Assembly (NCBI RefSeq): GCF_023093535.1
Contig: NZ_CP095757.1
Coordinates: 1,674,001 to 1,738,000, forward strand
From: Halovivax limisalsi
GTDB lineage: Archaea > Halobacteriota > Halobacteria > Halobacteriales > Natrialbaceae
Direction: 5' to 3'
Length of the DNA stretch: 64,000 bases
Shown here: positions 17,102 through 53,106 of the stretch, in pieces
Layout of the letters: each line of letters begins with the position of its first letter
Position numbering within the stretch: position 1 is the first letter of the stretch
Notes under the pieces: generated by a model
Seen by the model: only the letters and a program-made list of their open reading frames with translations
Database searches by the model: none
Told to the model about the DNA's origin: nothing
Program-made: the position numbers and the translations under genes

Positions 17102-17113
17102 AATATAATTATA
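17102..17113 (+). promoter_or_regulatory. TATA-like promoter of the first SBP-PAP2 module
   Basis: AATATAATTATA is the most AT-rich patch between the RNase P gene and the lipoprotein gene. It lies about 32-43 bp upstream of the ATG at 17145, placing the transcription start a few nucleotides before the start codon. A second AT-rich inverted repeat (AAAAC-CGC-GTTTT, 16974-16986) upstream probably belongs to the opposite, RNase P side. Confidence 0.5.
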
Positions 17114-17144: not shown

Positions 17145-18887
17145 ATGACGGGGAGGAGGGACCGGGCCGGACTGTCGCGACGGGAGTACCTGACGGCAGG
17201 CGTCGCCGCCGGCGGGCTCGGCCTCGCCGGCTGTGGCGCGCTGTTGAACCGCGTCGACCCGGACTCGACCGACCAGCTCTCGGTGACGATCACCGCGGTC
17301 CCCGACGACGACGATCGGCAAGTAAACGGGATCTTTACCGACCTCGAGGCGAAGCTGAACGCCGTCGGGATCGACGTCTCGTTCGATCTGCGGATGACTC
17401 ACGAGTTCTACCGCGCGATCTTGATGGAGAACGACTTCGACATGTACGTGGGATACTTCCCGGGTGATCGAACGCTCGATTACCTCTACATGCTGTGTCA
17501 CTCGCAGTTCATCAACGATCCGGGCTGGCAGAATCCCTTCGGGCTGACGAACATCCAGCTCGACGATCACCTCGAGGCGCAGCGTCGAGAGGCGGGCGAA
17601 CGGCGAGCGGAGACGCTCGTGGCCGTCCTCGAAACGCTGGTCGAGACGAAGCCCTTCGTTCCGATCTGCGAGCCGTCGCAGCATCGCGTGGTGACCGATC
17701 AACACTTCGGGGGCTGGCGACCGGACCGGCTGAACTCTAGCCTGGGCTACCTGGGTCTCGAGCAAGTCGGGTCGACCGCCGACATGACCGGCCTCCTCCT
17801 GGACGCCCGGGCGACGCAGAACGTCAATCCGCTCGCCGTGTTCTTCCGCCGGCGCGGGGCGGTCGTCAACCTCCTCTACGATTCGATCGCTCGGTACGTC
17901 GACGGCTCGTTGACGCCCTGGCTCGCGACCGACTGGACGATGGACGAGACGAGCGCCACGGTCACGCTCAGGGAGGACTGTCACTTTCACGACGATGAGG
18001 CGCTCACCGCAGACGACGTCGTCTTCACGTACGACCTGATCGCGGATCTCTCGCTCGGGCGGGCGGAGTCGCCGGTCCCGTCGCCGCGATTCCGCCGAGA
18101 ACGGTCGCTGATCGAGGCCGTCGAAGTGATCGACGACGAGACCGTCGCGTTCCGGTTCGACCGGACCACCGACCCCGTCGGTGACGGGTTGACGATCCCG
18201 ATCCTGCCTCGCCACATCTGGGAGCCCCTCGTCGAGGAGCTCGACGAAGAGACGGCGACGACCGAACCCTGGCTCCGCGACGCCCTCCTCTCGGCGCGGG
18301 ACGAGCGGGTCGGCAGTGGCCCCTACGCCGTCGAGGAACTCGTCGAGCGCGAGGAACTGTCCCTCGTCCGGAACGACGAGCACTTCACGCTGCGCGAGTC
18401 GGTCGACCTGCCCGCGCCGACCGCCGAAACCCTTCGCTTCCTGCCGGCGGCGAACAGCTCGTCGGCGATCGCGATGGTCGAAACCGGCGAAGCGTCGGTG
18501 ACGGTCTCGCCGCTCGAATCGCACGCCATCCCCGACCCGGCGGACCTCGACGGGGCGAGGCTGGTCGAGACGAATTCCAGCGGGTTCTACCACGTCGGGT
18601 TCAACCTCAGGCACGAACCGTTTTCGAACACGAACCTCCGCCGGGCGATCGCCAGCCTGATCGACCGCGAGTGGCTGGTCGCGGACGTCTTCGAGGGCAA
18701 CGCCCGGCCGATCACCGCGCCGCGGTCGGACGCGTTCGAGGACGAACTCGCCGGGCGGTCCGCCCCGGACCGGACGGTCCCGTTCGCCGGCGATAGCGGC
18801 GAGCTGGACGTCGAGGCCGCGCGCGATCGGTTCAGGGAGGCAGGCTTCAAGTACGACGAGGATGGTAGGCTCGTGGTGAACGACTGA
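17145..18887 (+). CDS. Tat lipoprotein of the SBP_bac_5 (peptide/nickel-type) fold, apparently circularly permuted
   Basis: 580 residues. The Tat signal (LSRREYLTAG, Arg12-Arg13) ends in lipobox LAGC (Cys30), so the protein is anchored outside the membrane. Residues about 45-215 resemble the C-terminal half of family-5 solute-binding proteins (start SVTITAVPDD, then AKLNAVGIDVSFDL, NDFDMYVGYFPGD, ETLVETKPFVPIC). Residues about 220-580 resemble the N-terminal half (TQNVNPLAVF, LLYDSIARYVDG, LTPWLATDW, LTADDVVFTYDLI near 283, GSGPYAV, NLRRAIASLIDREWLV). The chain stops at YDEDGRLVVND, exactly where the normal family runs on into the segment found here at the front. The stop overlaps the PAP2 start (TGATG). 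No ABC permease or ATPase is nearby. The ligand is unknown. Confidence 0.85.
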   Translation: MTGRRDRAGLSRREYLTAGVAAGGLGLAGCGALLNRVDPDSTDQLSVTITAVPDDDDRQVNGIFTDLEAKLNAVGIDVSFDLRMTHEFYRAILMENDFDMYVGYFPGDRTLDYLYMLCHSQFINDPGWQNPFGLTNIQLDDHLEAQRREAGERRAETLVAVLETLVETKPFVPICEPSQHRVVTDQHFGGWRPDRLNSSLGYLGLEQVGSTADMTGLLLDARATQNVNPLAVFFRRRGAVVNLLYDSIARYVDGSLTPWLATDWTMDETSATVTLREDCHFHDDEALTADDVVFTYDLIADLSLGRAESPVPSPRFRRERSLIEAVEVIDDETVAFRFDRTTDPVGDGLTIPILPRHIWEPLVEELDEETATTEPWLRDALLSARDERVGSGPYAVEELVEREELSLVRNDEHFTLRESVDLPAPTAETLRFLPAANSSSAIAMVETGEASVTVSPLESHAIPDPADLDGARLVETNSSGFYHVGFNLRHEPFSNTNLRRAIASLIDREWLVADVFEGNARPITAPRSDAFEDELAGRSAPDRTVPFAGDSGELDVEAARDRFREAGFKYDEDGRLVVND

Positions 18888-19777
18888 TGCTCGTCTCGAT
18901 CCTGACCCGGTTGAGCGTCGTCCTCCTCCTGGCAATGCTGGTGGGGGTCGTGAGCGTCATCGGCATCGATCGGTTTCGAGACGGGCTCTCGACGTGGCGC
19001 GAAACGGTGCGGGCGATCACGCCGATCGGGCTCACCCTGGCGACGGTGTTGTCGATCAACAAGATCTCCCGGCAGGCGCTCGTCGACATCTCGAGCCAGT
19101 ACGGACTCCGGCTCGGCGGGCTCTTTTACGACATCGAGGGGCGATTCATCCTCCTCTTCCAGTCGATCGGGAACGAGTGGACTGCGGCCTTCTACTCGTA
19201 CATCTACATCTACGCGTACGTGTTCTTGCTCGCGTTTCCCGTCATCATGTACTTCGTCCTCTCGGACACGCGCACGATTCGCGGCCTGCTGGCGTCGTAC
19301 ACGCTGAACTATACGATCGGGGCCGTCCTCTACGTCGTGGTCCACGCGTTCGGCCCGCGTCAGTACATCGGCGAGGACGTCCGGTGGATGCTCTTCGACT
19401 TCCGGCCGTCGTACCAGTTGCTGACGGCCGAGGTCAACACCTACACCAACGTCTTCCCGTCGCTGCACACCTCGCTCTCCGCGACGGTGCTGCTCTACGC
19501 GGTCCGGACGCACGATCGGTTCCCGCGCTGGACGCCGATCGCGGCCTTCATCGCGGTCAACGTCTGGATCGCGACGATGTACCTCGGGATTCACTGGGCG
19601 ATCGACGTCGTCGCCGGGCTCGTCCTGGCCTGGGGCAGCGTCGCCCTCGCGGATCGACTGGTCGGTCGATTCGACGTCGATCGATTCTTCGACCCCGTCT
19701 GGTTACGCGTGGATCGCCTCTCGAAACGGATCGGTGATCGCGTGAATCGTCGCTTCCGGCGTTTTGGGGGCGGGTAA
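18887..19777 (+). CDS. PAP2-superfamily membrane phosphatase (inositol phosphorylceramide synthase-like group)
   Basis: 296 residues, about six membrane helices from residue 5 to 255, then a basic cytosolic tail (RLSKRIGDRVNRRFRRF). Catalytic motifs of the PAP2_3/Aur1-like group are present: NVFPSLHTSLS (phosphatase motif 2) and MYLGIHWAIDVVAG (motif 3, with the His and Asp of the catalytic pair). The Lys-x6-Arg-Pro motif 1 of classic PAP2 enzymes is not evident, as in the Aur1-like group. Such enzymes move or remove phosphoryl headgroups of membrane lipids on the outer face. It shares one nucleotide with the preceding lipoprotein gene, so translation is coupled. Confidence 0.87.
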   Translation: MLVSILTRLSVVLLLAMLVGVVSVIGIDRFRDGLSTWRETVRAITPIGLTLATVLSINKISRQALVDISSQYGLRLGGLFYDIEGRFILLFQSIGNEWTAAFYSYIYIYAYVFLLAFPVIMYFVLSDTRTIRGLLASYTLNYTIGAVLYVVVHAFGPRQYIGEDVRWMLFDFRPSYQLLTAEVNTYTNVFPSLHTSLSATVLLYAVRTHDRFPRWTPIAAFIAVNVWIATMYLGIHWAIDVVAGLVLAWGSVALADRLVGRFDVDRFFDPVWLRVDRLSKRIGDRVNRRFRRFGGG

Positions 19778-19912
19778 CGCGGGCCGATCCCGTCGGCCGG
19801 TCCGCGCCCGCGACGGGTGCGCCCGGCGCGGCATGGCCCGTGCGACGCCGGCGGGCGCGCACAGAAGGCAATACTGTTATAGGTCCACTCTCGAAGCCTA
19901 CCCATCGCCGCC

Positions 19913-21649
19913 ATGACATCGCACGCCGACGGACCGACGGTTTCCCGTCGGTCCGCCCTCCAAACGGCAGCCGTCGGGACGCTCGCCGCGACGAGCGGGT
20001 GCGTTCGCGAGGTTCGAAACATCGTCCGGCGCGAACCGGATCGATCGCTCTCGCTCTCGATCGCGACGCTTCCGGAGGACGCCGATCCGCCGGCCAACGC
20101 ACTCGCGAAAACGTTCGAATCGGCCCTGTCGGTCGCGGGAATCGACGTCGAAGTCGCGATTCTCTCTCCCGTCGAGTACCGTCGGGAGATCCTGCTCAAT
20201 CACGAGTTCGACACGTTCGTCGGTCCCTATCCGACGGGCATCGATCCGGAGTACCTCTACGAGTCCTTCCACTCGCGCTACGCCGAAGAATCGGGCTGGC
20301 AGAACCCCTTCGGGCTGACGAATCTCCGGTTCGACGAACAACTCGAGGCCCAGCGATCGGCGACCGACACCGCGCGCGTCCAGGCGGTCACGGACGGGCT
20401 GTTTACCCTGGCGAACGAACAGCCCCTGACGCCGCTCTGCCGACCGACCGAGCACCGCCTGGTCAATGCCGATCGCTTCACCGGCTGGGACCGACATCCG
20501 CTCACGGATCGACTGTTCTTCGCCGCGCTGGAACCAGAGGCCGACGTCACCACGCTTCGCGGGCTCCTCACCGATCCGCGCGTGACCCAGAACCTCAACC
20601 CGTTCTCGATCGAGTACCGCGATGGGGGACTGGTCATCGACTTGCTCTACGATTCGCTCGCGGCCCGCGACGGAGACGGGTACGTCCCGTGGCTCGCCGA
20701 GGACTGGGAGTGGGACGGCTCCGTCGCCACGGTCACCCTACGAGACGCCACCTGGCACGACGGCGAACCGGTGACGGCGAGCGACGTGGTGTTCACTCAC
20801 GACTTCCTCGAGGACATGGCGCTCGGGTCGGCCGAGGTGCCGGCCCCTGCGCCGATCTATCGCGGGCGCGCCTCGGCGATCGAATCGGTCGAGGCGAGCG
20901 GTGCTGTGGCGCTCGAACTCGTGGCGGCTGGCGGGATCGAAGCCGCCGAGAGCGCCCTTACCGTCCCGATCTTCCCCGAACACGTCTGGGCGGACCGAAC
21001 CGAGGAGGCGTCGCTGCCGGGCATCGAAACGCCCTCGATCACCGAGGGCGTCGTCACCGACAACGTGCCGCCGGTCGGCAGCGGCTGCTACCGGTTCGAG
21101 GATCGGACCGACGGCGAGTTACTCACGCTCGCTCGAAACGACGAGCACTTCTCGCGGTCGGCGCCGACCCTGCCGACGCCGACGATCGAGACGCTCCGGT
21201 TCGAGGTCGTCTCCAATAGCTCGAACGCGGCCGAGGCCGTCCGGTCGGGACTGGCCGACGTCACCCTCTCGATGATCGAGCCGCGTCTCGTCGACGGACT
21301 CGCTCCCGACCCGCCGGCGTCGATACTCGAAACCGAGGCGCGCTGGTGTTACTGCATCGGGTACAACGCCAGAAGTGGGCCGCTGGGCAATCCGAACTTC
21401 CGGCAGGTGATCGCCTCGCTGGTCGATAAAGCCCACCTCGTCGACGCCGTCTTCGACGGCCACGCGACGCCGATCGTCTCGCCGCTTTCCCCCGAGTGGG
21501 TACCGAGCGCGCTTCGCTGGCGCGGGCGCGATCCGGTGACCCCGTTTCTGGGTCGCGACGGCGAACTCGATACCGACGCGGTCAGGCGAGCGTTCGACAA
21601 CATCGGCTATCGCTACGACGAGGACGGCTCGCTGCTGACCAGAAACTGA
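19913..21649 (+). CDS. second SBP_bac_5-type Tat lipoprotein, same permuted order
   Basis: 578 residues, a paralogue of the gene at 17145. Tat signal VSRRSALQTA (Arg12-Arg13) with Cys30 in ATSGC. It has the same internal order: the C-half-like segment comes first (SLSIATLPED, SALSVAGIDVEVAI, GWQNPFGLTN, ANEQPLTPLC), the N-half-like segment second (TQNLNPFSIEY near 225, LLYDSLAARDGDG, VPWLAEDWEW, VTASDVVFTHDF near 283, PVGSGCYRF, FRQVIASLVDKAHLV). It too ends at RYDEDGSLLTRN. TGTTATAGG at 19874-19882 is a likely TATA box, so this copy has its own promoter. Sequence divergence from copy 1 is considerable, so the duplication is not recent. Confidence 0.85.
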   Translation: MTSHADGPTVSRRSALQTAAVGTLAATSGCVREVRNIVRREPDRSLSLSIATLPEDADPPANALAKTFESALSVAGIDVEVAILSPVEYRREILLNHEFDTFVGPYPTGIDPEYLYESFHSRYAEESGWQNPFGLTNLRFDEQLEAQRSATDTARVQAVTDGLFTLANEQPLTPLCRPTEHRLVNADRFTGWDRHPLTDRLFFAALEPEADVTTLRGLLTDPRVTQNLNPFSIEYRDGGLVIDLLYDSLAARDGDGYVPWLAEDWEWDGSVATVTLRDATWHDGEPVTASDVVFTHDFLEDMALGSAEVPAPAPIYRGRASAIESVEASGAVALELVAAGGIEAAESALTVPIFPEHVWADRTEEASLPGIETPSITEGVVTDNVPPVGSGCYRFEDRTDGELLTLARNDEHFSRSAPTLPTPTIETLRFEVVSNSSNAAEAVRSGLADVTLSMIEPRLVDGLAPDPPASILETEARWCYCIGYNARSGPLGNPNFRQVIASLVDKAHLVDAVFDGHATPIVSPLSPEWVPSALRWRGRDPVTPFLGRDGELDTDAVRRAFDNIGYRYDEDGSLLTRN

Positions 21650-21967
21650 GCGGCCGATCGCTTCGGGCACGCGGCGTTCGAAATGCGCTCCGCCGTCGAG
21701 ACGGTTCTCGGCCGGCGATCGAGCGGTTCGCAGGTCCTGCGACGCGCACGAAGGTTGAAGACGGCGCCCGTCGAACCCGTTCGAAACTCGCGTCGCTTCG
21801 ACCGCCGCGTCGGTCGGCCGAATCGAACGGTGAGTCGCTCGAATCCGGGCTCGACCGTCCGGGCCCGCCGGCTCACGCCGCGGGTCGGACGGCTGACGCT
21901 CGACGGTCCGACGAACTGCCCGGGCGAGTCCGACGAACTGGCACGATCGTGGGTCACTTTCACGCAG
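21650..21967 (+). other. 318-bp gap inside the second module
   Basis: In the first module the lipoprotein and PAP2 genes overlap; here they are 318 bp apart. The PAP2 frame is open across most of the gap (from 21683), but the predicted extension is an Arg/Ser/Pro-rich stretch without hydrophobic character, unlike the N-terminus of the paralogue, so it is treated as non-coding. No clear promoter was seen. Confidence 0.4.
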
Positions 21968-22792
21968 ATGTTACGGTCCGTCCTGACGAATCTGGTGCTC
22001 GTCGTCGTCGGACTGATCGCGCTCGTCGGCAGCGTCCTGTTCTCCCGGAGCCAGCTCGCCCGGACTCGTCGCGAGTTGCTCGCCCGGCTGCGAGACGCGG
22101 CGCCGATCGCGCTCGTCCTCGGTCTCGTTCTCGTCGCCAACGGGATCGTCCGACAGCACATGGCCGGGCTTTCCTGGATCGTCGGGTGGGAACTCACCTG
22201 GACGTTCTATCAGCTCGAAGGCGGGTTGGTGCCGTGGATCCAGTCGTTTCGGACGCCCGCGCTGACGGCCGTTTTCTCGTACGTCTACGTCTACGGCTAC
22301 GCGTTCTTGCTGGTCTTTCCCGTCGTCGCGTACCTCCTGCTCGCCGACACGCGCCCGCTTCGCGTCCTCCTGACCGCGTACACGATCAATTACACCCTCG
22401 GGCCGCTGGTGTACGTCTTCGTCATCGCCTACGGGCCGCGCAACTTCGCCGCGGAGAGTCTCCTCTACGACGTCTATCCGCAGTACCAGTTACTCACGGC
22501 CGAGGTGAACCGCAACACCAACGTCTTTCCGTCGCTGCACGTCTCCCTGTCGGTGACGGTCGCCGTCGTGGCTTACTGGACTCGCGAGTGCTATCCCGCC
22601 TGGTGGTACCTCGGCGCGCTCGGGAGCGGGTGTATCGCCGTCGCCACGATGTACCTCGGGATTCACTGGGCGATCGACGTCGCGGGCGGCGTCGTCCTCG
22701 CCGCGATCAGCCTCTGGCTGGCCGATCGACTGGTCGACCGCCGATCGCTTGCCGACCGGCTCCGTCGACGGCAGCAGCAATCCGAGGAGTGA
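21968..22792 (+). CDS. second PAP2-superfamily membrane phosphatase
   Basis: 274 residues from the ATG at 21968, chosen because MLRSVLTNLVLVVVGLIALVG aligns with the start of the paralogue at 18887 (MLVSILTRLSVVLLLAMLVG). Six membrane helices; motifs NVFPSLHVSLS and MYLGIHWAIDVAGG are intact. YQLLTAEVN and YVYVYGYAFLLVFPV match the first copy (YQLLTAEVN, YIYIYAYVFLLAFPV). It lacks the basic C-terminal tail of the first copy and ends in a shorter Arg/Gln-rich end. It presumably acts on the same class of lipid phosphate as its paralogue, perhaps with its own lipoprotein partner. Confidence 0.85.
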   Translation: MLRSVLTNLVLVVVGLIALVGSVLFSRSQLARTRRELLARLRDAAPIALVLGLVLVANGIVRQHMAGLSWIVGWELTWTFYQLEGGLVPWIQSFRTPALTAVFSYVYVYGYAFLLVFPVVAYLLLADTRPLRVLLTAYTINYTLGPLVYVFVIAYGPRNFAAESLLYDVYPQYQLLTAEVNRNTNVFPSLHVSLSVTVAVVAYWTRECYPAWWYLGALGSGCIAVATMYLGIHWAIDVAGGVVLAAISLWLADRLVDRRSLADRLRRRQQQSEE

Positions 22793-49600: not shown

Positions 49601-50338
49601 ATGCAAGCTGTCGTGCTCGCGGCCGGGAAGGGGACTCGGCTCGAACCCCTGACCGAGGACACCCCCAAAGCCCTCGTCGAAATCGACGGGAAGCCCATCG
49701 TCGAGGACGTCTTCGACAACCTCATCGCCATCGGCGCGACGGAACTCGTCGTCGTCGTCGGCCACCTCAAAGAGCAGATCATCGAGCGCTACGACGACGA
49801 GTACCGCGGCGTCCCCATCACCTACGCCCACCAGCGCGAGCAGCTGGGGCTGGCCCACGCCATCCTCCAGGCCGAACCGCACGTCGACGACGACTTCATG
49901 CTGATGCTCGGCGACAACGTCTTCCGGGGCAACCTCGGCGACGTCGTCAACCGCCAGCAGGAGGACCGCGCCGACGCCGCCTTCCTCGTCGAGGAGGTGC
50001 CGTGGGAGGAGGCCTCCCGATACGGCGTGCTCGACACGAACGAGTACGGCGAGGTCGTCGAGGTCGTGGAGAAACCGGACGATCCGCCGTCGAACCTCGT
50101 CATGACCGGGTTCTACACCTTCACGCCCGCGATCTTCCACGCCTGCCACCTCGTCCAGCCCTCCGACCGCGGCGAGTACGAACTCCCGGACGCCATCGAC
50201 CTGCTCATCCAGTCCGGACGAACCATCGACGCCCTCCGGCTTGACGGCTGGCGCGTCGACGTCGGCTACCCGGAGGATCGCGACCGCGCCGAGGAGTTGA
50301 TTCTCGAGGAGGCCGAGCCGGCTGAAGCGGCGGAGTGA
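49601..50338 (+). CDS. aglF: AglF-type UTP-glucose-1-phosphate uridylyltransferase
   Basis: 245 residues, a single nucleotidyltransferase domain without a beta-helix: VVLAAGKGTRLEPLTEDTPKALVEIDGKPIVEDV, FMLMLGDNVFRGNLGDV, VEKPDDPPSNLVMTGFYTFTP. The -PKAL- signature and DGWRVDVGYPEDRDRA end match haloarchaeal AglF, which makes UDP-glucose in the N-glycosylation pathway. Its product is the substrate of AglM at 51748. A TATA-like AAGAGATATGAG (49566-49577) lies about 25-35 bp before the ATG. Confidence 0.9.
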   Translation: MQAVVLAAGKGTRLEPLTEDTPKALVEIDGKPIVEDVFDNLIAIGATELVVVVGHLKEQIIERYDDEYRGVPITYAHQREQLGLAHAILQAEPHVDDDFMLMLGDNVFRGNLGDVVNRQQEDRADAAFLVEEVPWEEASRYGVLDTNEYGEVVEVVEKPDDPPSNLVMTGFYTFTPAIFHACHLVQPSDRGEYELPDAIDLLIQSGRTIDALRLDGWRVDVGYPEDRDRAEELILEEAEPAEAAE

Positions 50339-50361
50339 GGTGCACGTACTGACCTATTGCA

Positions 50362-50595
50362 CTATTTCGAACAGTCGCGACCGGCTTTCGCCACGCGTCG
50401 GCGATGTTCGACGCTGATGTCGGACTGTCGGGCGGATTCGAGCTGTGAGTCGATCAGTGGGTTCTGCTGTTCACCCCACTCGTCGGCGTCGTGGGTTTCG
50501 ATGTATTCGACCCATCGCTTGATGGCGACGATGCGTTGTTGCCGGTTCCGCTCGTGTTTTTCCTTGAGGGAGTCACGCGCGCTCGAATCGCTCAT
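50362..50595 (-). CDS. 77-residue charged helical protein
   Basis: 77 residues: MSDSSARDSLKEKHERNRQQ, then RIVAIKRWVEYIETHDADEWGEQQNPLIDSQLESARQSDISVEHRRRVAKAG. It looks like one long charged helix followed by a short helical hairpin, with no membrane segment or cysteine until the end. The WGEQQN...DSQLESAR core looks like a conserved haloarchaeal small protein, but I cannot name it. It is convergent with aglF (24 nt between stops). The upstream in-frame extension overlaps the pseudogene and is not used. Confidence 0.6.
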   Translation of the reverse strand: MSDSSARDSLKEKHERNRQQRIVAIKRWVEYIETHDADEWGEQQNPLIDSQLESARQSDISVEHRRRVAKAGRDCSK

Positions 50596-50665
50596 CGTTT
50601 TCTTGAACGTCGAGTTTCTTCCCCCAGCGTTCGAGCGCCGAGGTGCGAAGGGGTCATCCAGTAGA

Positions 50666-50980
50666 TTAGAGATGGACGGCGTCTTCAGAACCTTTTGGCG
50701 TGCCGAGATAAAGCTTGTACGCGATCTGCAACTCGAGCGGACCGATCGGAAACTCCGCGTCGACGCTCGTAATTTTGGCCGTGATTCTGTTTCCGAGTGA
50801 GGCACGATCCTACTCGTCGCCGACGAATTTGGCTTCGCGGTGGGGAACCATTTCGTTCCATTCATGGCGGAGAGTACCGGACCACGGGCGTCGCAGTAAC
50901 CCGATGGCCTCATCCCATGCAAACACTGACTCTGGTCGGCACCCGTCGGTTTCGGGGAGAACGTTTTTTCGTATGGGTAC
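50666..50980 (-). pseudogene. decayed gene with in-frame stop, upstream of VapBC
   Basis: On the minus strand the frame reads PETDGCRPESVFAWDEAIGL and HEWNEMVPHREAKFVGDE, then TAG at 50810-50812. It continues in the same frame with SLGNRITAKITSVDAEFPIG and PLELQIAYKLYLGTPKGSED-AVHL and stops with TAA at 50666. The second half is the C-terminal pattern (LQIAYKLYLG...EDAVHL) of haloarchaeal nucleotidyltransferase-like proteins linked to toxin-antitoxin loci, normally followed by about 60 more residues. Both the internal stop and the early end indicate decay. The upstream end runs into the vapB promoter. Confidence 0.6.
50961..50971 (+). promoter_or_regulatory. TATA-like box of vapB
   Basis: ACGTTTTTTCG lies 23-33 bp upstream of the GTG at 50994, in a GC-rich setting. 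It predicts a leaderless transcript beginning near 50992 and therefore favours GTG 50994 over ATG 50973 as the start of the antitoxin gene. Confidence 0.5.
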
Positions 50981-50993
50981 CTATACCAAATTC

Positions 50994-51221
50994 GTGAGCA
51001 AGAACATCGCCATTTCCGACGACGTCTACGAGCGACTGAAACGCGAAAAAGGGGACAGAAGTTTCAGCGAAGTAATCGAAGACAGGCTCGAAGATGGGGG
51101 ACGACTGTCCGATGTCGTGGGAGCCGGAGCCCTCGATCACGAGGCCATATCTGCGGCGTCCGACGAAATCGAACGGCTGAGTCGCGGAACCCGATCGAGG
51201 TTGGACGATGAAAATCTGTGA
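50994..51221 (+). CDS. vapB: VapB-type antitoxin
   Basis: 75 residues from GTG 50994 (VSKNIAISDDVYERLKREKGDRSFSEVIEDRL), the strand-helix-helix fold used by haloarchaeal VapB proteins. The C-terminal part (AISAASDEIERLSRGTRSRLDDE) is the toxin-binding tail. It overlaps the PIN toxin gene by 14 nt, the classic coupled arrangement. It binds the toxin and its own promoter. An ATG at 50973 gives seven extra residues but lies too close to the TATA box. Confidence 0.85.
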   Translation: MSKNIAISDDVYERLKREKGDRSFSEVIEDRLEDGGRLSDVVGAGALDHEAISAASDEIERLSRGTRSRLDDENL

Positions 51222-51615
51222 CACGTCTGTCCTCGTCGATATCGACCGGGGCGGCAGTGAGATCGAACGCCAAGTGGAGAAGCTAGACGACGAAGGTCCA
51301 CATGCGGTTAGTACCGTGACTGTAACGGAACTCCGACTCGGTGTTCACCTGTCGGATTCCGATTTGGAGAACCGAATAACGAAGCTCGATCGGTTGCTCT
51401 CGCGGTTCGAACTCGTCGACGTTTCGCGCCCGGTGGCGGTCGCGGCAGCCGATATCATCGCGACGCTCAAAGAGCAGGGACGATCTCTGAACGACCTTCA
51501 CGACGTATATATCGGTGCTACTGCACGGGTCGAACAGCTGCCTGTGCTGACAGCAAACGTCTCTCACTTCCAGCGCATCGAAGACGTCACCGCTGTAGAC
51601 TGGAACGAGTACTGA
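51208..51615 (+). CDS. vapC: VapC-type PIN-domain ribonuclease toxin
   Basis: 135 residues, a full PIN domain. First acidic residue in MKICDTSVLVDI (Asp5), Glu in VTVTELRLGVHL (about 40), and the later acidic pair near LNDLHDVYIGATARVEQLPVLTANVSHF (about residues 95-117). It should cut RNA (VapC toxins commonly target initiator tRNA or rRNA loops) when released from VapB. The gene pair sits between aglF and aglM of the glycosylation block, next to a decayed gene, and its AT content is somewhat higher than that of its neighbours, all hinting at later arrival. Confidence 0.9.
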   Translation: MKICDTSVLVDIDRGGSEIERQVEKLDDEGPHAVSTVTVTELRLGVHLSDSDLENRITKLDRLLSRFELVDVSRPVAVAAADIIATLKEQGRSLNDLHDVYIGATARVEQLPVLTANVSHFQRIEDVTAVDWNEY

Positions 51616-51747
51616 CGTCGAGTCGATACAGATAGTGACCGAACATCCCGTTTCGATCAGTGGGCGGGCTCCAGTTCGCAGGATACACTTGCTCAGGGTC
51701 GACCGAAACCCACAAACCTCTAACCCCAGCGCATCGTCCCCCCGTCC

Positions 51748-53106
51748 ATGTACGTCTCCATCGTCGGCAGCGGCTACGTCGGGACGACCGTCGCGGCCTG
51801 CCTCGCCGATATGGGCCACGAGGTCGTCAACGTCGACATCGACGACGAAATCGTCGAAGCGATCAACGCGGGCGAGTCCCCGATCCACGAACCCGGCCTG
51901 GCGCCGCTGATCGAGGAACACGCCGGCGGTCGCCTCCGTGCGACGACTGACTACGACGCCGTCACGGACACGGAACTCACGCTGCTCTGTCTCCCGACGC
52001 CGCAGAACGAGGACGGAAGTCTAGACCTCGGACCGATGCGTGCGGCGAGCGAATCGCTTGGCGAGGCGCTGGCCGAAGGCCGGTCCGAAGCGAGTGGCGA
52101 CGGGGCGGCCGGCGAATCCGCCGGATCCGAGCACCTCGTCGTCGTCAAGAGCACGGTCCTGCCGGGAACCACCGAGGACGTCGTCGGCCCGATCGTGGCC
52201 GACGCGTCCGGGATGACGATCGGCGAGGACCTCGAACTCGTGATGAACCCCGAGTTCCTCCGGATGGGGACCGCGGTGGCCGACTTTCAGGAGCCCGACA
52301 AGGTCGTCGTCGGCGCGACGAGCGAGGACGCGTCGGCCACGCTGCGAGAGCTCTACGCCCCCATCCTCGACCGCGAGGGGACGGACTACGTCGAGACGGA
52401 CGTCCGCTCGGCCGAACTCATCAAGTACGCCAACAACGCCTTCCTCGCCTCGAAGGTCTCGCTGGTCAACGAACTGGGTAACATCGCGAAGGCCTACGAC
52501 GCGGACGCCTACGAGGTGCTCGATGCGGTGGGCCTCGACGATCGCATCTCCGAGCGCTTCACGCGATCGGGGCTTGGCTGGGGTGGATCCTGTTTTCCGA
52601 AGGACGTCAACGCGATCCGGGCCGGGGCGCGCGAGCAGGGCTACGATCCGGAACTGCTCGACGCCGTCGTCTCGGTCAACGACGGCCAGCCGAACCGGCT
52701 CGTCTCGCTGCTCGCCGACCACGTCGATCTCGACGGTGCGACGGTCGCCGTCCTCGGTTTATCGTTCAAGCCCCACACCGACGACATCCGGAAGTCCCGC
52801 GCGCTGATCGTGATCGATCGACTTCGCGAGCGCGGCGCCGACGTCGTCGCCCACGATCCCGTCGCGATCGGGACCGTCCGCGAGTACTACGCCGAGCACG
52901 GCGACGAGTCCGGACCGGGCCCGCTTACCTTTGCAGCGACCGTCGAGAGTGCACTCGACGGTGCGGACGGCGCCGTCGTCGCGACCGCCTGGCCCGAGTA
53001 CGACGACCTGCCGGTCGAGGCGATGGATCGGCGGATTCTCGTCGACGGCCGCCGAATCGACGTCGATCGCGACCGGCTAGACGTCTACGAAGGGCTGACG
53101 TGGTGA
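51748..53106 (+). CDS. aglM: AglM-type UDP-glucose 6-dehydrogenase
   Basis: 452 residues. N-terminal Rossmann domain (MYVSIVGSGYVGTTVAACLADMG), VKSTVLPGTT, and LVMNPEFLRMGTAVADFQEPDKVVVGA. The catalytic Cys is in GLGWGGSCFPKDVNA (about 279), and the C-terminal UDP-binding domain starts near LGLSFKPHTDDIRKSRAL. It oxidises UDP-glucose twice to UDP-glucuronic acid, a sugar donor for haloarchaeal N-glycans. A roughly 20-residue polar insert (EGRSEASGDGAAGESAGSEH) near 110 is extra compared with the family. The methyltransferase gene starts 11 nt downstream. Confidence 0.93.
   Translation: MYVSIVGSGYVGTTVAACLADMGHEVVNVDIDDEIVEAINAGESPIHEPGLAPLIEEHAGGRLRATTDYDAVTDTELTLLCLPTPQNEDGSLDLGPMRAASESLGEALAEGRSEASGDGAAGESAGSEHLVVVKSTVLPGTTEDVVGPIVADASGMTIGEDLELVMNPEFLRMGTAVADFQEPDKVVVGATSEDASATLRELYAPILDREGTDYVETDVRSAELIKYANNAFLASKVSLVNELGNIAKAYDADAYEVLDAVGLDDRISERFTRSGLGWGGSCFPKDVNAIRAGAREQGYDPELLDAVVSVNDGQPNRLVSLLADHVDLDGATVAVLGLSFKPHTDDIRKSRALIVIDRLRERGADVVAHDPVAIGTVREYYAEHGDESGPGPLTFAATVESALDGADGAVVATAWPEYDDLPVEAMDRRILVDGRRIDVDRDRLDVYEGLTW

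Follow-up and report, generated by a model that had tools for sequence, protein, structure and literature searches.

In a 64,000-nucleotide stretch of the Halovivax limisalsi genome (assembly GCF_023093535.1, contig NZ_CP095757.1, positions 1,674,001 to 1,738,000 of the forward strand), referred to here as the window, two genes for lipoproteins alternate with two genes for membrane enzymes. Each lipoprotein is a solute-binding protein (SBP) of the type found in ATP-binding cassette (ABC) importers, and each enzyme is a PAP2 protein. A survey of Halobacteria showed that the lipoprotein and the PAP2 enzyme form an obligate pair without a transporter, and pointed to a third membrane protein, denoted here as c0, as a likely additional component. 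The features of the locus, numbered from the first letter of the window, are the following:

17104..17113, forward strand: TATA-like box TATAATTATA, about 32 nt 5' of SBP1, read by eye
17145..18887, forward strand: SBP1, a lipoprotein of 580 aa of the twin-arginine translocation (Tat) type, a circularly permuted SBP_bac_5 (cluster C) protein
18887..19777, forward strand: PAP1, a PAP2_3 (Aur1/PgpB-like) membrane enzyme of 296 aa
19875..19881, forward strand: weaker TATA-like stretch before SBP2, read by eye only
19913..21649, forward strand: SBP2, a second permuted SBP_bac_5 lipoprotein, 578 aa
21968..22792, forward strand: PAP2b, a second PAP2_3 membrane enzyme, 274 aa from its homology-supported ATG start

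Both families were assigned by Pfam: SBP_bac_5 was matched with E 1.1e-47 (163.4 bits) by SBP1 and E 1.1e-37 (130.4 bits) by SBP2, the cut-off being 32.4, and PAP2_3 with E 8.1e-15 (55.6 bits) and 4.8e-14 (53 bits) by the two enzymes (cut-off 27). The copies are homologous over their full length, with 38% identity over 587 columns for the SBPs and 49% over 221 columns for the PAP2 proteins, and therefore represent a tandem duplication and not a chance resemblance. An earlier note, made from the DNA letters, had proposed this duplication, and Pfam and the homology of the copies bear it out; the motifs FPSLH and LGIHWAID that it reported are found in both PAP2 proteins, and so is its one-base overlap in copy 1, where the stop codon of SBP1 (TGA, 18885-18887) and the ATG of PAP1 (18887) have one base in common (TGATG). 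The open reading frame of PAP2b starts at 21683, but homology to other PAP2 proteins begins at the ATG at 21968, which is most likely the actual start, the part before it being an extension that is not conserved; in module 2, the two genes are therefore separated by 318 nt and do not overlap. As for promoters, the TATA-like box TATAATTATA is likely that of module 1 (its TATAAT was also flagged as a sigma-70-type hexamer, a model inapplicable to archaea), and the stretch at 19875..19881 may serve module 2 as a promoter of its own.

The absence of transport genes nearby, also pointed out in the earlier note, holds for the whole window: none of the 32 BPD_transp_1 (permease) or 62 ABC_tran (ATPase) matches of this genome (3.89 Mb, one contig) falls inside it, and the nearest permease and ATPase lie about 68 kb and about 57 kb from the module, respectively. 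By its Pfam families, then, the locus does not qualify as an ABC importer, since no permease or ATPase genes accompany the SBPs in the window. The other five SBP_bac_5 proteins of the genome each have a permease gene at a distance of about 2 kb or less, and the lobe order is the ordinary one in the four of them for which both lobes could be located. A role in scavenging would nevertheless keep these lipoproteins in transport: PAP2 would dephosphorylate an outside compound and the lipoprotein would pass the product to a distant ABC importer. This would fit the occurrence of soluble-substrate phosphatases (G6PC1, acid phosphatases) among PAP2 folds, the descent of the SBP clade beside importer SBPs and the wealth of permeases in the genome. 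However, these two SBPs are the only ones of their family here that do not adjoin a permease, no Dpp-type permease cluster was present in the stretch read at 81 of the 83 PAP2-linked loci collected from haloarchaea, and the co-occurrence described below is with PAP2 and not with a transporter, so we consider scavenging quite unlikely.

The strongest evidence for the pair came from 391 Halobacteria genomes, in which the SBP (accepted at E up to 1e-30) was found in 263, a strong PAP2 match also in 263, and both in 262 (phi coefficient 0.988). A further 21 genomes gave a weak PAP2 match only; the PAP2 threshold was chosen after the data had been seen, and no PAP2 match fell between 1.7e-40 and 5.1e-16. 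These searches scored three to six candidates per genome, and the copy numbers are lower bounds. In the SBP-only exception (G131), the SBP is a relative from an ABC operon (L167), and in the PAP2-only exception (G248) part of an SBP is matched in a stretch of 919 bases where a contig begins. Among 20 genera holding both states (at least 20, as genus labels cover the listed genomes only), none of the 132 labelled genomes was discordant. As a control, ASST, an unrelated and widespread surface family of similar frequency, gave a phi of -0.21 with PAP2. The earlier note had suggested such a survey and had named two outcomes that would speak against its proposal, namely that the two families rarely occur together or that the lipoproteins are consistently found beside ABC permeases. 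The first is contradicted by the 262 of 263 in each direction, and as to the second, a Dpp-type permease cluster was found at 2 of the 83 loci, both times on the opposite strand and with an SBP of its own. Its proposal of a function other than import, in partnership with a lipid-phosphate enzyme, is thus supported by the co-occurrence and by the scarcity of permease neighbours; its more specific ideas, sensing or an exchange of lipid headgroups, are speculative. In a phylum-wide search, the SBP appeared in 37 of 334 genomes, all of the same order, and none of 46 candidate viral contigs carried a PAP2 relative.

The two genes are also closely linked. With gene calls made by a GC-position script, PAP2 was found directly downstream and on the same strand for 92 of 103 SBPs, at a distance of at most 35 nt in 88 and with a one-base overlap in 34. 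An SBP adjoins PAP2 in 12 of 13 plasmid records that carry PAP2, the other being a record from Halostagnicola larsenii with no SBP in the stretch shown, and all 12 SBPs of this clade that are plasmid-borne adjoin a PAP2; the module is present, for instance, on plasmids of Haloferax gibbonsii. Linkage is not universal: the SBP stands alone, with PAP2 elsewhere in the genome, in G033, G136 and G179, and both genes are present, with PAP2 away from the SBP, in G141, G242 and G260. Moreover, the distances within the two families correlate at 0.84 over 92 SBP-PAP2 pairs, compared with a maximum of 0.14 in 500 shuffles. In the family of the window, the module has constant neighbours, YhbY/Rnp4-type genes on one side and a small conserved gene on the other, and a neighbourhood shared by descent, without any joint function, could produce such a picture. 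Yet the neighbours differ outside this family, the pair persists where it is unlinked, it stays together on plasmids, and mixed genera hold no discordant genome; unless the surveyed genomes are badly unrepresentative, the data on mixed genera, unlinked genomes and neighbours rule out hitchhiking, and we attach almost no weight to an origin by neighbourhood.

The lipoprotein itself is unusual in the order of its lobes. Residues 44-205 of SBP1 correspond to the C-terminal lobe of ordinary members, and residues 206-577 to their N-terminal and middle part. In Pfam, residues 256-574 matched positions 2-284 of the 368 of SBP_bac_5, and against PDB chain 5u4o residues 225-519 matched 55-321 and residues 61-194 matched 376-508, the latter weakly. 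When lobe profiles made from sequences of the family were applied, the C-terminal lobe came first in 103/103 PAP2-linked SBPs and last, in the canonical order, in 73/73 scorable relatives among 79 non-haloarchaeal loci. An AlphaFold2 model was obtained with a predicted local distance difference test score (pLDDT) of 75 and a predicted template modelling score (pTM) of 0.76, from an alignment that excluded C-lobe fragments of canonical SBPs, which had aligned to the wrong lobe. In agreement with the permutation, its residues 208-580 could be superposed on residues 1-328 of NikZ (Z 22.4, 324 residues, 3.3 Å) with an aligner that keeps the sequence order, the N-terminal lobe of the model being outside the aligned rows. 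The twin arginine R12, R13 is found in 103/103 SBPs of the clade and the lipobox cysteine C30 in 102/103, which are the marks of a haloarchaeal Tat lipoprotein. The two-lobed fold is whole and positions typical of the family (N228, D291, G390-S391-G392 and R499) are retained, whereas W128, Q129, P131 and P312 each recur in 96 or more of the 103 clade members and in none of 10 ABC-linked SBPs. At one locus of Salinigranum rubrum (L153:7275-9051), the SBP gene lies in two open frames beside an intact PAP2, possibly as a pseudogene or through a sequencing error.

A clue to the origin of this arrangement was provided by ten distant relatives (L167-L176), of which nine are permuted and one is canonical (L176), a Dpp-type permease cluster being present at eight of the ten loci. 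In the tree, from which the split SBP was dropped for length, the PAP2-linked SBPs form one clade (102/102, local support 0.999), nine of ten ABC-linked permuted SBPs fall in another (support 0.91), and one, the SBP at L195:15293-16924, is placed among canonical proteins by its middle part, which may reflect a second permutation or a tree error. An SBP in a Dpp-type ABC operon also occurs on plasmid NZ_CP119783.1 (L222), where only a collinear match was seen, the permutation result covering L167-L175. The expectation of the earlier note that permuted SBPs go with PAP2 and not with permeases is therefore correct for the PAP2-linked clade and fails for these distant ones. Since permuted SBPs exist in ABC operons, the permutation is older than the loss of the transporter. 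Most simply, an SBP of an importer was permuted once, and the PAP2-linked line, which has probably left transport, later lost its transporter. If it is true that the permutation preceded the change of partner, this would be a concrete example of a binding protein leaving transport.

The partner enzyme belongs to the PAP2 superfamily by its model match and by two catalytic histidines with an aspartate: H194, H236 and D240, together with G156-P157-R158, are invariant in 100/100 PAP2 proteins. Classical PAP2 phosphatases carry the motifs KX6RP, PSGH and SRX5HX3D, and PAP2 enzymes cleave phosphoesters through a histidine intermediate. The full PgpB-type signature is not found here, because GPR, PSLH and TMYLGIHWAID are present but the Arg of the third motif (C3) is absent, its place being taken by T230 in 100/100. 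In a topology read from the hydropathy profile, the family-averaged loop charges put loops 23-47, about 126-134 and 208-218 and the C-terminus on the positive, inner side, so that GPR, PSLH and HWAID come to lie on the outer one; the active-site residues are thus predicted to face outward, on the side of the Tat lipoprotein. The best structural relatives of a model of this enzyme, all above background, are PAP2 enzymes, namely LpxE (Z 12.8), G6PC1 (12.2), Bacillus PgpB (12.1) and Aur1 (11.4), and relatives within one unit are tied, so that the list does not single out the reaction performed.

Fifteen loci with two complete modules were informative about the tandem copies. When the copies are compared between loci, each has its nearest relative at the same position (30/30 for the SBPs and 30/30 for PAP2), and the two distance matrices agree less well in 15/15 loci once the PAP2 partners are exchanged. 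The downstream copies fall into one clade with four single copies (support 0.99); the upstream ones do not make up a clade. By these comparisons the tandem copies are ancient. The earlier note had taken two diverged copies to imply different ligands or lipids, which is supported indirectly by their age and by the retention of partner and position in 15/15 loci; at five further tandem loci, considered below, two SBPs share one PAP2.

The protein that the earlier note had overlooked, c0, is a membrane protein of 360-510 aa, annotated as hypothetical, in which LWP-T-R, H-R-Y and WDWF-R-RH are invariant in four members. Four members found no Pfam match up to E 10, NCBIfam gave none for c0 up to E 1, and the PDB sequences yielded one match, at E 0.98. 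An assignment as an LssY_C protein was rejected, as PF14067 scored above its cut-off in 0/8 genomes; a 19-position match at E 3.6 inside a c0 gene of G351 is too weak to count. Among the PAP2 genomes, 241 of 263 carry c0 (phi 0.85), and so do five others, all with a weak PAP2 match. The gene is present at 21 of 83 module loci, directly upstream and on the same strand in 15, and PAP2 is found beside it in G033, G141 and G242. In the genome of the window it lies 1.9 Mb from the module (G000:C1:3604771-3605925, L247), and in the family of the window, where it is unlinked, its neighbours are ordinary metabolic genes. Being linked in some lineages and co-occurring unlinked in others, c0 is likely a third component. 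The genomes G162, G204, G213, G214 and G326 have c0 with a weak PAP2 match only, which hints at a second, diverged PAP2 partner, and G131 has the ABC-type permuted SBP only.

The wider surroundings of the module are varied. At L130, L131, L137, L139, L140 and L141, outside Natrialbaceae, it lies beside a dodecin gene and an Fe-S biosynthesis (HesB-type) gene. An ASST-like gene is near 14 of the 83 loci and a GT-C gene near 13; in several genera, L217, L218 and L221 included, ASST-like sulfotransferase and GT-C glycosyltransferase genes are divergent from the module, and in Haloferax gibbonsii a phosphoglucosamine mutase joins them. A sulfated-glycan pathway was rejected as a general context, since ASST does not track the pair across genomes, and is a local context at most. 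Elsewhere in the window, G+C falls to 0.60 at 50001-52000, compared with 0.65-0.72 in the rest, and a short open reading frame there (51208-51615) resembles a PIN-domain protein by eye.

All these observations can be integrated in a model, to which we assign a probability of roughly 0.6, in which the module consists of an outward-facing PAP2_3 phosphotransferase or phosphatase and a dedicated permuted SBP derived from ABC importers, without a transporter. SBP, PAP2 and c0 would act together in a single complex at the outer surface. As the SBP family binds polar compounds, the SBP would catch such a compound and present it to the PAP2 active site as a phosphoryl or headgroup acceptor, a substrate or a switching signal, and PAP2 would cleave a phosphoester of an outer-leaflet lipid via a phospho-histidine intermediate; the tandem copies would be two ancient versions of the same device, diverging separately. 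For the presentation of a bound compound to PAP2 we estimate somewhere between one chance in three and an even one. The most specific version, in which the permuted SBP hands the compound to an Aur1-like enzyme for attachment to, or exchange on, an outer-leaflet lipid, with c0 as third subunit, is held tentatively, as rather doubtful. Were it true, a binding-protein-dependent enzyme would stand in place of a binding-protein-dependent transporter.

Several findings weigh against this model. Physical contact between the proteins and delivery of a ligand are inferred, and an SBP with no transporter gene next to it can nevertheless supply a transporter encoded elsewhere, of which this genome has many. 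Most of the strongly conserved SBP positions are common to the ABC-linked relatives, so that the sequence by itself shows no new role, and the PAP2 model, built from three sequences, is of low confidence (pLDDT 60). c0 is absent from 22 of the 263 PAP2 genomes. In addition, the numbers of the two genes do not always agree: at tandem loci L178, L179, L180, L186 and L193, three of them from the genus of the window, no separate PAP2 accompanies the second SBP, an extra lone SBP is found in G147 and G358, and one SBP match goes with two PAP2 matches in G033, G141, G179 and G242. The loci with two SBPs and one PAP2 speak against a strict 1:1 complex, and imply that several SBPs can serve one PAP2, as would be the case for interchangeable partners.

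These numbers also bear on the notion that the lipoprotein binds no ligand and is a structural subunit that folds or holds PAP2, with c0 as a second subunit. Yeast Aur1 needs such a subunit, Kei1, and the PAP2 model counts the Aur1-Kei1 complex among its structural relatives; near-perfect co-occurrence and co-divergence are, in turn, typical of subunits. A bare scaffold, however, could lose the two-lobed fold and the residues N228, D291, G390-S391-G392 and R499, all of which are kept, and the five tandem loci and two genomes with more SBPs than PAP2s fit it poorly, which makes it unlikely. The main rival is regulation by the bound compound: the lipoprotein would be a ligand sensor or regulatory lid, and an outside solute would switch PAP2 without being passed on. 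There are solute-binding proteins that act in sensing together with a membrane protein (LuxP with LuxQ, among others), and the tight pairing with one enzyme and the tandem variants would suit different signals with one output. Nonetheless, the genome evidence fits delivery equally well, and no cytoplasmic signalling domain is known in PAP2 proteins, which means that any signal would need to take effect through a lipid; we take this reading seriously at clearly less than even odds, with the ligand-free scaffold and scavenging behind it.

These results suggest that an importer-type protein family was recruited to serve a membrane enzyme. In annotation pipelines, the lipoproteins receive the name 'ABC transporter substrate-binding protein', a label that probably misleads in the majority of the Halobacteria genomes encoding them. 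The presence of c0 predicts that of the SBP-PAP2 pair, and the pair offers a genetic handle on an outer-leaflet enzyme of haloarchaea, whose lipid remodelling is, to our knowledge, little known; Haloferax gibbonsii is culturable and carries the module on plasmids, so deletion tests are feasible.

In those parts of the open-licence literature that were searched, no description was found of the pair, of naturally permuted SBPs or of c0; the protein families are known, and within these limits the pairing, the permutation and c0 appear to be new. The closest relatives of the lipoprotein are the cluster C SBPs of ABC importers (SBP_bac_5; DppA, OppA, AppA, NikZ), which share the fold and sequence of both lobes and, as lipoproteins, the location outside the membrane, but here the lobe order is permuted and the gene stands beside PAP2 instead of permeases and ATPases. 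Closer still, the permuted haloarchaeal SBPs of Dpp-type operons (L167-L175, NZ_CP119783) have the same permutation, the same Tat/lipobox start and 24-32% identity along their length; they differ in having DppB/C/D/F-type neighbours and in lacking W128, Q129, P131 and P312 of the PAP2-linked clade. On the enzyme side, Aur1, the inositol phosphorylceramide synthase that works with Kei1 and transfers inositol phosphate to ceramide, has the same FPSLH and HxxxD motifs (profile E 0.015; fold Z 11.4, 205 residues), and some records are annotated with that activity. However, identity is very low, the partner here is an SBP and not Kei1, and Aur1 is structurally tied with other PAP2 enzymes; we know of no ceramide in archaea, and the likeness appears to be one of fold and motif. 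The lipid phosphatases PgpB and LpxE share the PAP2 core (PgpB profile E 5e-4, Z 10.7-11.2; LpxE Z 12.8), whereas here Thr stands in for the Arg of the C3 motif and PSLH for PSGH, and no SBP partner of such phosphatases is known to us. Finally, sensory systems of the LuxP-LuxQ type likewise join an SBP to a membrane protein other than a transporter; their partner is a histidine kinase or chemoreceptor, and in the haloarchaeal pair it is a lipid-phosphate enzyme.

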